From a virus, in IMG/VR virus record IMGVR_UViG_3300022836_000569, positions 1-36,614 of that record: a stretch of DNA of 36,614 bases. The stretch is one strand, 5' to 3'. Every line of letters begins with the position of its first letter. Position 1 is the stretch's first letter. The notes below the pieces were generated by a model. That model ran no database searches and was not told the DNA's origin. It saw only the letters and a program-made list of their open reading frames with translations. The translations under genes and the position numbers were made by a program. Positions 1 to 33,830 of the stretch are shown here, in pieces.

Positions 1-1143
1 TCACGATCCGCACGGATGCTCACCGATGTAGCGGAACCCCTGGACGGCGCGGAAGTGGCCACCGTATCCGGAGCCGATCCCTGAATAGCCGCCCCGGGCG
101 GCTGCCCTGGCGATGGTCGCCGCGCTCTTGGTCTTGTTCCCGCCATGGAGCACCGCGCTTACCTGGGTCCAGCACCGATGCGCTCGCAGCGCCGCCGCCA
201 GGCCGGGGTGGCTAGTGTGGAACAGGGTCGGCATCGGCTTGCCGAACCGATTGAGCCCATCGAGCCAGCGCGCGCAGATCGTGTTGAGAAAGCGGAGGCC
301 TACGCCCGCGCCCTGCCAGTCCGGCATGATGACCAGGCGGCAGGCCCGAGCCTCGCGTAGACCGGGTCTGGTGCTGAAGGCGACATGCGCCACCGGCTCG
401 CCGGCGACGAAGCCGACATAGCATTTGGCCGCGACCATCTTCGGGGCTTTCAGATAGTGATGCGGCTCAAACAGGGACCACCAGCTCCAGTCGGTCTCCT
501 GGATCTCGACGTCAAAGGAGGGACGTCGTTGAAGCCACCTCCCGGCAAAGCGCCCGGTCGAGGTGTCGAAGGTCCAATCCGGCTGCAGCCAGTCGAGCAC
601 GTCGTAGTGGCACGTCAAGAGGACCGCCTGTCCCGGACCGCGGCGCCACGCCTTCGCGAAGGCCAAGGCGCCAATCCGGGCAATCTGGCGATCGACGACG
701 CTGGAAAACTCGTCGATCACCACCCGGCCCAGCCGATCGCACACGATGCGCGCCAAGTCGGCGCGGAACCGCTCGCCATTGGATAGCAACCGGTAGGGGC
801 GCATCCATGCCGGCACCGCCCCAAGGCCAACCGCGGCGAGCGCCCCCGTCACTTCGTCGATGGTCCGCTCGGGCGCGATCGCCTCCACAATGGGGAGGTC
901 GCGCGGCCACCCGGCTGACTTGTAGACCGCGCGCGGCCCCCATATGGCTCGGCCGAGCGAGGACTTGCCGGAACCGGAGGGACCGACCACAGCGCCGATG
1001 CTCCAGCCGTCGCCCTCGATCGGCAGCTCGGCCGACAATCGGAACTCGCGGCTTTCGGGCGTGTCAGTGTTGTACAAGGACGCCACCAGGGCAGCCCGGT
1101 AGGTGTCCGCCGGCAGGGCCGGGTGGTGGATCTCGACCCTCAT
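1..1143 (-). CDS. ABC-type ATPase fused to GNAT acetyltransferase, in the mom position
   Basis: The 380-residue protein has two parts. Residues about 45-200 carry a Walker A (GPSGSGKSS, 54-62), an ABC-signature-like LSNGE (120-124), a Walker B ending in D144-E145 and an H-loop-like H179, as in soluble ABC ATPases; no membrane segment is visible. Residues about 205-330 look like a GNAT domain with the acyl-CoA loop QGAGVG (277-282), followed by a Gly-rich tail. The ATG at 1143 is chosen because it overlaps the stop of the preceding small gene (ATGA) and lies just before the domain. In Mu this place, last in the genome and behind com, is held by mom, whose GNAT-related product modifies adenines in phage DNA. 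I infer a Mom-like DNA-modification role, with the ATPase perhaps acting on DNA. Substrate and chemistry are not readable from sequence. Confidence 0.85.
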   Translation of the reverse strand: MRVEIHHPALPADTYRAALVASLYNTDTPESREFRLSAELPIEGDGWSIGAVVGPSGSGKSSLGRAIWGPRAVYKSAGWPRDLPIVEAIAPERTIDEVTGALAAVGLGAVPAWMRPYRLLSNGERFRADLARIVCDRLGRVVIDEFSSVVDRQIARIGALAFAKAWRRGPGQAVLLTCHYDVLDWLQPDWTFDTSTGRFAGRWLQRRPSFDVEIQETDWSWWSLFEPHHYLKAPKMVAAKCYVGFVAGEPVAHVAFSTRPGLREARACRLVIMPDWQGAGVGLRFLNTICARWLDGLNRFGKPMPTLFHTSHPGLAAALRAHRCWTQVSAVLHGGNKTKSAATIARAAARGGYSGIGSGYGGHFRAVQGFRYIGEHPCGS

Positions 1144-1289
1144 ACCGACACCACCCGCAGCCGCTCGTAGCCGGCCGCCTTCAGGGCCTCGAAGGTGCGC
1201 TTTTGTTCGTCCTCGTCGGCGCATACGACGATCACCGCAAACTGCGGTCGGTACCGAAATCCGTTCTTACCGGGAGGAGGCTTCGCCAA
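1140..1289 (-). CDS. Small 49-residue protein between com and the ABC-GNAT gene
   Basis: This short frame is open between com and the ATPase-acetyltransferase gene. The best start is TTG at 1289, with GGAG 7 bases upstream (1296-1299). It overlaps the com 3' end by 23 bases and its TGA overlaps the next ATG (ATGA), so the three genes look translationally coupled. The product begins LAKPPPGKNGFRYR, has a hydrophobic strand (AVIVVC), an acidic patch (ADEDEQ) and ends AGYERLRVVSV, which looks like a compact alpha/beta fold. I believe similar short proteins accompany mom-like genes in other phages, but that is memory. An upstream start inside com is possible. Function unknown. Confidence 0.6.
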   Translation of the reverse strand: MAKPPPGKNGFRYRPQFAVIVVCADEDEQKRTFEALKAAGYERLRVVSV

Positions 1290-1458
1290 GGTCAGCTCCG
1301 TTAGGATGCGACGCTTGGGAGCGCTCTGGTGTGGGGCTCTGAGGGACCCGCTGGACGGTGTTGAGAGTGCGACAACGACCGCACTTGATGGTGATTCTAC
1401 CGGTGAACTCGCCGTCGAACAAGCGGCGTCTGCACGACCCGCATCGAATCGACTCCAT
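1267..1458 (-). CDS. com: Com-family zinc-finger translational regulator
   Basis: The 63-residue protein starts MESIRCGSC and has the Com layout: CxxC at residues 6-9 and CxxC at 26-29, separated by a short beta-like stretch with a conserved RRLF segment. Mu Com is 62 residues with the same N-terminal SIRC motif and four zinc-binding cysteines; it binds mom mRNA and frees the mom start codon from an inhibitory hairpin. The tail after residue 33 is polar and not conserved. The gene lies immediately before the small gene and the ABC-GNAT gene, the Mu com-mom order with one insertion. An analogous translational role on the downstream genes is inferred. Confidence 0.85.
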   Translation of the reverse strand: MESIRCGSCRRRLFDGEFTGRITIKCGRCRTLNTVQRVPQSPTPERSQASHPNGADLGEASSR

Positions 1459-1666: not shown

Positions 1667-2356
1667 TCAGCTCGGCGCCGGCAGGCTGCCGACCAGGTCG
1701 ATCGCGTCGAGCCCGGCGTGATCCGCGGCACCGTCGATCGCCTCGTGCATGTCGAACTCGTACTGGCAGCCGGCGGCGAAACGCTCTCGCACCGCCTGTC
1801 GGGCGGCGTCGACCAGGGCGGTGTCGAGGGTCAGCCGAGAACCGGATCTGGTGACCACGCCGAGGGAGCTGCCGCCACCGACCTGGTTGGAGGCCTCCAT
1901 AAGCTCGACTACCGCGTCGTGCGAAGTCGAAAGCGTGACGGTCTGAGGTCCGACGGTGACCAGGGCGCCGGCGTTCCGGTACTCCCAGCTGAGCCGGGTC
2001 GCCTCGATCGTCATTTCTGCCTTGCGCTCGGCAACCGGCTTGGACAGCACGGTCCGGGCGTAGGAAGCCGTCCCGGCCACGAAATCGACACTCGACGGAT
2101 CCGCGCCGAGCGGGCCGAGCTTCTCATCGGTGCCGATCTGAGGATCGGGTGCGGCCTCCTCCAGCAGGATGATCAGTCCGGCCAGCTCACCGCAGTTGCC
2201 GCGTTCGGGATGACTCGGGTCGATGCGCATGGCCAGGGACCATGGCGGCCGGCGCCGATTGGCGATCGTCTGATGGCGCATCGGAACACCGTCGATCACC
2301 GCGACCCCACCGGCGCCGCTGTTCGCGGCAGGGTCCCAGAGCGTGACAGCCGTCAT
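1667..2356 (-). CDS. DUF4376-like phage tail-associated protein
   Basis: The 229-residue protein is the last gene of the tail operon. Residues about 105-220 (ARTVLSKPVAERKAEM through the AIDL segment) match my memory of the phage DUF4376 domain: an alpha-helical region with a basic helix (VAERKAEMTIEATR) and a C-terminal helix containing ARQAVRERF. The N-terminal half has a patch MRIDPSHPERG with no assignable fold. Such proteins usually follow tail-fibre genes; whether this one is a fibre-assembly chaperone or a virion protein is unknown. It starts at ATG 2356, 25 bases after the upstream gene, preceded by a good GGAGG-type site (complement of cctcc near 2363-2367). Confidence 0.6.
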   Translation of the reverse strand: MTAVTLWDPAANSGAGGVAVIDGVPMRHQTIANRRRPPWSLAMRIDPSHPERGNCGELAGLIILLEEAAPDPQIGTDEKLGPLGADPSSVDFVAGTASYARTVLSKPVAERKAEMTIEATRLSWEYRNAGALVTVGPQTVTLSTSHDAVVELMEASNQVGGGSSLGVVTRSGSRLTLDTALVDAARQAVRERFAAGCQYEFDMHEAIDGAADHAGLDAIDLVGSLPAPS

Positions 2357-31859: not shown

Positions 31860-33830
31860 TCACAGACGGCTGCGATTCCTCGTGGCCGCGTAGGCCAGGA
31901 CGTTGTTCACCAAGTCTTCCGGCATCGCGTGCGGGTCCTGCTCGGGTAGCCCACGCGGCTCGACCTTCACCGCCGCATTCCCATCGAAGCGGTGCGGGCG
32001 GATGACCCTTGTTTCTGGGGTTGGCGGTGCCGGCAGATCGGGCTGGCGACGGGCGACGGCGGCGGCGTCGAGGATCCCCTCGGCTGCCTCCAGGTCGCGG
32101 GTGGCGCGCCGCTTCGCCGACAGTGCCCGCGCAGTTTTCTTGGCGCCGTCCCGGTCGTTCCAACCCACGTCGGCGATGCACTCGGCCTGGCCGACATAGG
32201 CGCCGTCGAGGCGGTAGACGTGCAGGGGATCGTGCAGCCGGTCGGGGTCGAAGCGCACCGCGACCTTCTTGCCGCGGTGCCGCAGCAGGGCGTCGCTCCA
32301 GTAGCGGTTGCCGTACAGCTCGATCAGGCCGCTTTCTTGATGGCAGCGCACGCCCTCGGCCGACAGCAGCAGCATCCGGCGCACGGGCTCGTCGGCCGCG
32401 GTCAACCGACGGATCGGCGCGGTGGCGTAGCCCTCGGCGAAGATCTCGTCGTAGCTCTGGCCCTTGGCCACCAGGCCGTTGCGGTCGGTCCGGCGGTTGA
32501 ACCGGATGATCTCGCGTTCGCAGACCGCCAGCAGGACGTCCATGGAGACGGCCCGGGCGCCGTAGTTGGCCGGCTTGTTCTGGGTGTTGTGGCCGGTGTA
32601 GGCGCCCTCGCACTCGGGCGCCCGGCTGATGTAACGGCTCAGGTCGCCGAAGGCGCGCTCGATCAGCTTGGCCTGGCCGTGGGCCGGTTTGGTGAACCGC
32701 ACCTCGACGCCGACCGCCGTGAACGCGCCCAGGAAGTCGTCGTCCTTGATCTTGCCGCGATGCCGGAACCGGCTGCCGGCGGTGTTTTCCTTGGCCGCCG
32801 CGGCCATGGTGTTGTCGGAATAGATGACCTCCGGCAGGCCGTAGGTATCGGCGACGTCGCCGAAGGTCAGGCGGAAACCCTCGGCGGTCTCGGCCCGGTC
32901 CAGTCGCCAGCCGACGATCTTGCCCGACCGCAGGTCCTGGAAGGCGATCAGGAATGCTCGCTCCGTCTTGGCGCCGTCCGGCCACTTCACGAACACGTCG
33001 AGCTTGTGACCGTCGTAGTTCAGCGCCTCCATGACGTGGAACACGGTCCGGTCGCGGCGCTGCGGCGGGATCATCCGGTCGAGGGCGTCGACTCCCTTCC
33101 GGCGCAGGACCACCAGGCTCGGATCCATCTGCTTGACGCGGCGGATCAGGGTGTCGAGGGACGGGATCGTCCAGCCGTTCTCGGCGGCTGCATCCTGGAG
33201 CCGCTGGTAGCACTCGGCCGGCAATGGTTGGCTCTGGCGCAGGTAGTCGCCCTTGAACTGTTCCCAGGCTTCCGGCGTGATCTCGGCGGTCGCCGTGCGG
33301 CCGGCGTAGTGCGGCGCCAGGTGCGGCAGCCAGTCCCGGCGATCGACGCCGCGGACCTCGCCCAGCCAGTTGAAGATGCTGGCGGCACTCTTGCGGATCT
33401 CACCGGCGACGGCCGCGACGGCCGCCGACCTAGTCATCCCGCCGACCTCGAGTTGCGCGACCTTCAGCAGGGCGTCCAGCTTGGCCTTCGCGCGGGCTTT
33501 CGTCTTGTCGGGCAGGGACTCGTAGCGGTCCCAGGCGGCGCGGCGGTCGGCCTCGTGCCGGGCAATCTCCGGTGACGCGTCCTCGGCCGGTGCCGCCTCG
33601 CGGACCGCGAGCCGCATCAGTCGGGCCTGGGCGGCGCTCGGCAATAGGCTGTAGTGGTACTCCCAGCCGCCGCCTTGGCCCTCCCGCTGCCGCGCCAGCG
33701 GGTCGCCGGCGAGGTCGACCGAACACCGCCAATCGTCGCGGCGGATCACCTTGTAGAGGTTGTCCAGGCCCTTCGGCAGACCGGGGAGGCCCAGCTCGGC
33801 GAGCCGTTGCGGGGTCAACCAGGTCTCCAT
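31860..33830 (-). CDS. A: MuA-family DDE transposase
   Basis: The 656-residue protein has the MuA layout. An N-terminal winged-helix-like end-binding region (about 1-75) has METWLTPQRLAELGLPGLPK and WEYHYSLL. Further DNA-binding helices follow (PEAWEQFKGDYLRQS and SLDTLIRRVKQMDP). The RNase H-like catalytic core carries D273 (NYDGHK), D339 (SDNT) and E391 (GQAKLIERAFG), matching Mu A D269, D336 and E392. The beta-barrel and C-terminal regions contain YGNRYWSDALLRHRGKKVAV and a YRLDGAYVGQAECIADVGWND segment. It catalyses end cleavage and strand transfer for replicative transposition. The ATG overlaps the gene upstream (TGATG). The core looks intact. Confidence 0.95.
   Translation of the reverse strand: METWLTPQRLAELGLPGLPKGLDNLYKVIRRDDWRCSVDLAGDPLARQREGQGGGWEYHYSLLPSAAQARLMRLAVREAAPAEDASPEIARHEADRRAAWDRYESLPDKTKARAKAKLDALLKVAQLEVGGMTRSAAVAAVAGEIRKSAASIFNWLGEVRGVDRRDWLPHLAPHYAGRTATAEITPEAWEQFKGDYLRQSQPLPAECYQRLQDAAAENGWTIPSLDTLIRRVKQMDPSLVVLRRKGVDALDRMIPPQRRDRTVFHVMEALNYDGHKLDVFVKWPDGAKTERAFLIAFQDLRSGKIVGWRLDRAETAEGFRLTFGDVADTYGLPEVIYSDNTMAAAAKENTAGSRFRHRGKIKDDDFLGAFTAVGVEVRFTKPAHGQAKLIERAFGDLSRYISRAPECEGAYTGHNTQNKPANYGARAVSMDVLLAVCEREIIRFNRRTDRNGLVAKGQSYDEIFAEGYATAPIRRLTAADEPVRRMLLLSAEGVRCHQESGLIELYGNRYWSDALLRHRGKKVAVRFDPDRLHDPLHVYRLDGAYVGQAECIADVGWNDRDGAKKTARALSAKRRATRDLEAAEGILDAAAVARRQPDLPAPPTPETRVIRPHRFDGNAAVKVEPRGLPEQDPHAMPEDLVNNVLAYAATRNRSRL

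Follow-up and report, generated by a model that had tools for sequence, protein, structure and literature searches.

A Com-associated ABC-ATPase/GNAT cassette in the place of mom in a Mu-like phage: a putative acyl DNA-modification system

Coupling of a GNAT domain to an ABC ATPase has been predicted to bring about an acyl modification of a base, with the Tenacibaculum phage pT24 named (Iyer 2013, as cited in PMC7824862), a prediction that appears to have stayed without experimental follow-up. For the com-mom operon of phage Mu, the target of Com defined by SELEX is CC(N)2-3GAG in the loop of an RNA hairpin close to the mom start (PMC6483171). The ABC-ATPase/GNAT fusion described here is homologous to the pT24 exemplar of the predicted base-acylation system (tblastn E 4e-37), so the central inference of this work, base acylation by an ABC-GNAT protein, is a core idea already known as a prediction. 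The formyltransferase-type partner (FT), the tandem Com sites and the exchange with Mom are provisionally regarded as new: the literature searched, with Iyer 2013 lying outside its coverage, held no earlier account of an ABC-GNAT protein with any of the three, and the word 'formyltransferase' has no occurrence in PMC7824862.

The window analysed here, meaning the whole stretch of 36,614 bases, is an IMG/VR virus record of a Mu-like transposable phage in which the families MuA, MuB, GemA, Mu portal and protein F are all present. Com, the 49-residue ORF (orf49) and the 380-residue fusion are encoded on the minus strand, from 1458 to 1, at the contig end (Table 1). All three ORFs exist as an earlier sequence-only reading of this DNA had described them, a coupled 49-residue protein between Com and fusion, with the same order, coordinates and motifs. 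Its statement that they are the last three genes needs amending, as a fourth gene (FT) probably begins at the contig end. The record lacks the phage right end: the contig ends exactly at the stop codon of the fusion, inside what appears to be the overlapping fourth gene. Matches to phrog_11143, phrog_28816 and phrog_6417, together with the same gene order across dozens of phages, argue that the cassette is not a chance arrangement. A 229-residue protein without a Pfam match is encoded directly upstream of com (1667-2356, minus strand).

Table 1. Features of the cassette and of the record, in window coordinates.
Feature	Positions	Strand	Basis and remarks
ABC-ATPase/GNAT fusion, 380 aa + stop	1..1143	-	phrog_11143, E 7.7e-138 over full length; alignment of 52 relatives; AlphaFold2 pLDDT 87
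Predicted ABC ATPase domain, residues 1-200	544..1143	-	invariant columns; Foldseek to ABC ATPases, E about 1e-7
Predicted GNAT domain, residues 205-380	4..531	-	Acetyltransf_1 match on isolated domain; Foldseek to GNATs
Putative formyltransferase gene start, GTG CGG ATC GTG = M R I V	1..13	-	overlaps fusion stop; cut by contig end
orf49, 49 aa	1140..1289	-	TTG start; homologous to C-terminal domain of phage ParB-like proteins; phrog_28816, E 2.3e-17
com, 63-aa zinc-ribbon translational regulator	1267..1458	-	PF10122; phrog_6417; phrog_13819 'gpCom'
Predicted hairpin pairing orf49 RBS (GGAG 1299-1296) and UUG start (1289-1287), candidate translation-inhibition structure	1277..1326	-	MFE -30.4, z -1.3, a weak signal by itself
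Degenerate second Com-type hairpin GCGC-UCCCAA-GCGU inside com	1311..1324	-	stem kept, loop motif lost; position of hairpin 2 of relatives
Degenerate first Com-type hairpin GGGU-CCCUCAGA-GCCC inside com	1334..1349	-	contains CC-N3-GAG; position of hairpin 1 of relatives
Mu-type transposase (MuA)	31860..33830	-	DDE_2, E 8e-41, and Mu transposase domains

The fusion is, by its motifs and its predicted structure, an ABC ATPase domain joined to a GNAT domain. Walker A (GPSGSGKSS) and Walker B (RVVIDEFSS) lie at residues 54-62 and 140-148; in an alignment of 52 sequences the ABC signature LSNGE (120-124) and the H-loop His179 occupy conserved columns, as does the PxxQGxG of the acetyl-CoA motif A (R/Q-x-x-G-x-G/A). 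The GNAT domain features an HHY at 228-230 and motif A, RLVIMPDWQGAGVG, at 269-282, with QGAGVG at 277-282. The AlphaFold2 model is confident and comprises two domains (pLDDT 87). Foldseek aligned the whole fusion with ABC ATPases and residues 205-380 with GNATs (E about 1e-4, TM 0.5-0.6), the latter matches being ordinary GNATs such as Ard1, SpeG and ElaA. The structure prediction thus bears out the two-domain architecture proposed from the letters, in which the Walker and QGAGVG motifs had been placed at these residues. Searching PDB profiles with the GNAT domain gave no significant match, and no DNA-binding element was identified. Among the cassette genes, none was recognised as the membrane-spanning partner that marks an ABC transporter. 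Relatives of the fusion were collected from 80 viral loci, 80 bacterial loci and additional phage records; they split into two clades, a core one at about 50-70% identity and a distant one at about 31-44% that includes pT24. A class III CoA-transferase gene is found in 3/24 viral records of the distant clade, and at two of its loci (L055:7502-8182 and L070:7314-8024) it lies directly downstream of ABC-GNAT, in place of the formyltransferase; these neighbours may be a weak pointer to acyl-CoA chemistry.

Com, with the motifs MESIRCGSC...IKCGRC, scored 40.5 bits against Pfam Zn_ribbon_Com (PF10122, cut-off 22.9, E 1.9e-10) and matched phrog_6417 (E 3e-12), and the Cys columns of its zinc ribbon (two CxxC) are invariant among 24 Com proteins, in agreement with the earlier description of a well-conserved Com with two CxxC and an SIRC opening. 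PF10122 scored above its cut-off in 17 of 49 related records, all 17 within the FT-bearing clade. The TTG start of orf49 is preceded by CGGAG and its stop codon overlaps the ATG of the fusion (ATGA). The orf49 family also matches the C-terminus (residues 166-201, E 5e-7) of the ParB-like gp1 of Gordonia phage Axumite. Free-standing beside Com, the orf49 domain elsewhere closes a ParB-like protein encoded directly upstream of the fusion, as it does in Gordonia phages and at several further loci, which suggests that it is a partner linking the fusion to DNA. Existing annotations of these genes can mislead: at L147 (PP754929.1 33155-34883) orf49 is labelled an Acr candidate and FT is listed as an enzyme of purine synthesis, and the FT of Axumite is annotated as a tRNA-methyltransferase.

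The com/orf49 junction of the window reached a folding z of only -1.3 and the orf49/fusion junction gave no signal (z -0.26); RNA control was therefore examined in the relatives. Com-type hairpins, defined by a 4-bp stem and a C-N2-3-G-A loop and located past the zinc ribbon in the com frame, are present in 35/38 cassette com genes, usually as a pair at about +19 and +41 nt past the last Cys codon; their motif is the one that SELEX defined for Mu Com. They total 63, whereas 200 shuffles gave 1.4 on average and never more than 4, and the neighbouring regions have 2 and 1. The stems differ widely yet stay paired (AGGC/GCCT, GCGT/ACGC, TTGC/GCAA, AGAC/GTCT, GCGG/CCGC); with the loops located regardless of pairing, and with registers mixed, stem pairing was 0.62 vs 0.52 and 0.65 vs 0.48 for permuted arms, both hairpins exceeding all 2000 permutations. 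The bacterial set, some loci of which may overlap the viral set, has such hairpins in 31/39 com genes. Mu and its near relatives possess one (Mu: ATGC-CTGCGA-GCAT), and tandem hairpins occur in the com genes of Pseudomonas phage Bise (L142) and Burkholderia phage AP3 (L143), upstream of DNA methyltransferases, and of Pseudomonas phage PAN70 (L149), upstream of Mom. In Bise, a reverse transcriptase family gene (L142:1266-2297) lies directly upstream of com and the adenine methylase.

Shuffling the upstream sequence of the relatives makes the orf49 start more accessible (0.43 native vs 0.49 shuffled, n=36, p 0.0017), and the start opens further when the hairpins are masked than under random masks (0.567 vs 0.518, n=20, p 0.006), with p values that are optimistic because the loci are related and non-independent; masks of equal size were used since blocking bases always frees others. 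Both effects are modest. Folding predictions for the window place its orf49 start largely in paired sequence (unpaired probability 0.31 vs 0.46 in shuffles, p 0.03), and its own com does not match the strict hairpin pattern: two stems are at the right places and the strict loops are absent. The proposal that Com controls the cassette is upheld by the hairpins conserved in com mRNAs of relatives; for the copy of this window, with its degenerate hairpins, such control is thus presumed by analogy with them, possibly with a co-diverged Com.

The existence of the fourth gene is suggested by the last 13 bases of the window as read on the minus strand, GTG CGG ATC GTG A; the same -12 offset occurs at loci L008 (MRIMIIGQKW) and L011 (MRVVIVGQQW), and from the four codons, their position and their frame we infer that the record ends within an FT gene. 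(Pattern matching picked up FT start overlaps at 7 loci only, a count that was left out of the results.) Core-clade fusions have a formyltransferase-type protein of 170-250 residues next downstream, the ends usually overlapping, and these proteins match PF00551 (E 1e-8 to 3e-18) and phrog_9240. PF00551 was found in 27/29 viral records of the core clade vs 0/19 of the distant clade. When FT served as the query, 25 relatives were recovered, every one of them directly downstream of orf49 and the fusion, with Com detected in 20. FT adjoins the fusion in 66/80 bacterial loci; since the remaining 14, like the distant clade, are without an adjacent FT, it is not essential to the ABC-GNAT module. At L050:6001-7614, ABC-GNAT and FT form one natural ORF of 537 residues.

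The nearest solved relative of FT is the N-terminal 10-formyl-THF domain of ALDH1L1 (E 8e-24), with the sugar, Met-tRNA and PurN formyltransferases ranking behind. In ALDH1L1 numbering, the His106 and Asp142 equivalents are invariant (38/38) and position 104 is Gly in 37/38. Ordinary formyltransferases have Asn at this position, the first residue of the catalytic Asn-His-Asp, and ALDH1L1 has Ile; lacking the Asn, FT might only hydrolyse formyl-THF. The ALDH1L1 domain takes the formyl group off 10-formyl-THF, and the formyl is then carried on a 4'-phosphopantetheine arm (PMC8748788), which makes a formyl-thioester route from FT to GNAT conceivable by analogy.

The genomic setting of the cassette bears on its role. 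The closely related Porphyromonas phages 014a_Kyudai4 (with Mom) and 007a_Bg4 (with orf49-ABC-GNAT-FT) show an exchange at one right-end site, which is flanked by tail genes of 82-90% identity upstream and by a final 94 bp of 84% identity. Given this swap, and since Com elsewhere precedes Mom or DNA methyltransferases, DNA modification appears to be the likeliest role of the cassette, consistent with the earlier proposal that it holds the mom position in an equivalent capacity. PAN70 vs Komp_PAO1_1, considered as a second Mom swap, was rejected with only about 240 bp shared around com. Mom is present in only 2/49 ABC-GNAT records, as a separate gene, and the other 47 are without it. A gene of Arthrobacter phage SWEP2 annotated as an endolysin (L156:968-1834) matches Mom (35% identity, E 2e-22).

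The genes com, orf49 and the fusion, with the FT-type gene that is complete in relatives and cut off here, form a tightly packed operon with overlapping ends. We propose that this operon is probably a Com-gated, ATP-dependent cassette for acyl, possibly formyl, modification of DNA that takes the place of mom, its product being putative. Late in infection, Com would bind the hairpins of the com mRNA and free the sequestered orf49 start, and coupled translation from orf49 would then switch on the fusion and FT, so that modification would arise only when phage DNA can be marked before packaging. Orf49, which elsewhere is a ParB-like C-terminal domain, may help to position the fusion on DNA, where the ABC domain would spend ATP to clamp, scan or open it and the GNAT domain would acylate an exocyclic amine of a base from an acyl-CoA-type donor. 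Less certainly, FT could supply or add a formyl group, being kin to the ALDH1L1 domain that passes the formyl of 10-formyl-THF towards a 4'-phosphopantetheine thiol. As Mom does, the cassette would protect DNA against restriction enzymes. Against a DNA target stands the finding that the GNAT domain is as close to generic small-molecule and protein acetyltransferases as to any. A more specific version, drawn by analogy and held tentatively as a doubtful possibility, has FT moving the formyl of 10-formyl-THF to CoA or pantetheine and the ATP-driven GNAT placing formyl, or a formylated acyl group, on the exocyclic amine, with the tandem Com-RNA hairpins as the gate; if true, such a folate-derived one-carbon acyl mark would be a new class of DNA modification.

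How far the cassette, which the sequence-only reading had called Mom-like, resembles Mom itself can be judged from the GNAT domain, whose descent from Mom finds no support. Pfam Mom (PF25680) did not match the fusion at E up to 1, hhalign of the GNAT domain against Mom gave probabilities of 0.3% and 5%, and the Mom structure 8bv8 was not among the best 50 fold matches of the domain, so membership in the Mom family was rejected. The domain on its own does match Pfam Acetyltransf_1 (21.2 bits vs a cut-off of 20.7). A canonical acetyl-CoA motif occupies the place of the conserved ELNR..D..RN.E block of Mom, and all that the two have in common is a conserved His-Tyr pair where the domain begins. 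That pair, at the same place as the HY of Mom, and the adjoining Com are what could speak for a diverged true Mom fused to an ABC ATPase, which the profile and fold results make extremely improbable. The earlier suggestion that the chemistry may differ from that of Mu is upheld. Convergent enzymes might even so make the Mu Mom product, N6-carbamoylmethyl adenine, if the PurN/FT-like protein handled a glycinamide-type group that GNAT attaches; the shared regulator, the shared genomic slot with its direct allelic swap and the PurN-type relatives among the FT homologues would agree with this, but the GNAT domain has neither sequence kinship to Mom nor its ELNR..D..RN.E block, and the records of L045 and L047 hold a Mom gene and the ABC-GNAT-FT cassette together, suggesting different products, so we consider an identical product decidedly unlikely.

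The ordinary character of the GNAT fold matches (Ard1, SpeG, ElaA), and the phage GNATs known to act on RNA polymerase (PMC7824862), would also suit a protein or small-molecule acyltransferase whose target could be, for example, RNA polymerase or a protein of host defence, with FT modifying the same target. This seems unlikely in view of Com control, the exchange with Mom or methyltransferases and the association with ParB-like proteins, and it leaves the ABC ATPase unexplained. The ATPase would find a place in a module for defence or superinfection exclusion encoded by the phage, sensing foreign DNA while GNAT and FT poison that DNA or a protein; defence systems commonly contain ABC ATPases (PMC10853773). 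The gating by Com and the mom slot agree with self-protection instead, the cassette is without a nuclease or toxin, and we hold such a module to be very improbable.

DNA modification under Com control, the reading we prefer, has several implications. The recurrent FT pairing offers a specific chemical hypothesis for ABC-GNAT that is open to mass spectrometry. The covarying hairpins provide a sequence rule for finding Com-controlled genes, so far Mom, DNA methyltransferases and the ABC-GNAT cassette, and make Com regulation outside Mu directly testable. The Porphyromonas pair represents a natural exchange of Mom for the ABC-GNAT-FT cassette, and the same RNA-binding switch (Com) over a different multi-gene cassette suggests that phage DNA bears a chemical mark yet to be characterised.

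Among described systems, the pT24 ABC-ATPase/GNAT pair shares both domains in the same order (31% identity in the tblastn comparison with its locus), but no Com or FT is annotated beside the pT24 genes, whereas the core clade has Com, FT and a stand-alone orf49. With Mu com-mom the cassette shares a homologous Com, overlapping genes, a Com-type hairpin in the com mRNA and a right-end position in Mu-like phages; it differs in a modifying enzyme unrelated by profile, in two more genes, and in usually having two hairpins, about 22 nt apart, where Mu has one. The com-methyltransferase pairs of Burkholderia phage AP3, Pseudomonas phage Bise and Escherichia phage Chuche likewise place Com directly upstream of a DNA-modifying gene, with tandem Com hairpins in AP3 and Bise, but have a SAM-dependent methyltransferase in place of ABC-GNAT and FT. 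FT itself matches the ALDH1L1 and PurN/Fmt formyltransferases (PF00551) over its length and keeps their His and Asp, differs from them in the Gly that replaces the formyltransferase Asn (Ile in ALDH1L1), and belongs to a phage family (phrog_9240) that, in the scan made, was met only beside ABC-GNAT.
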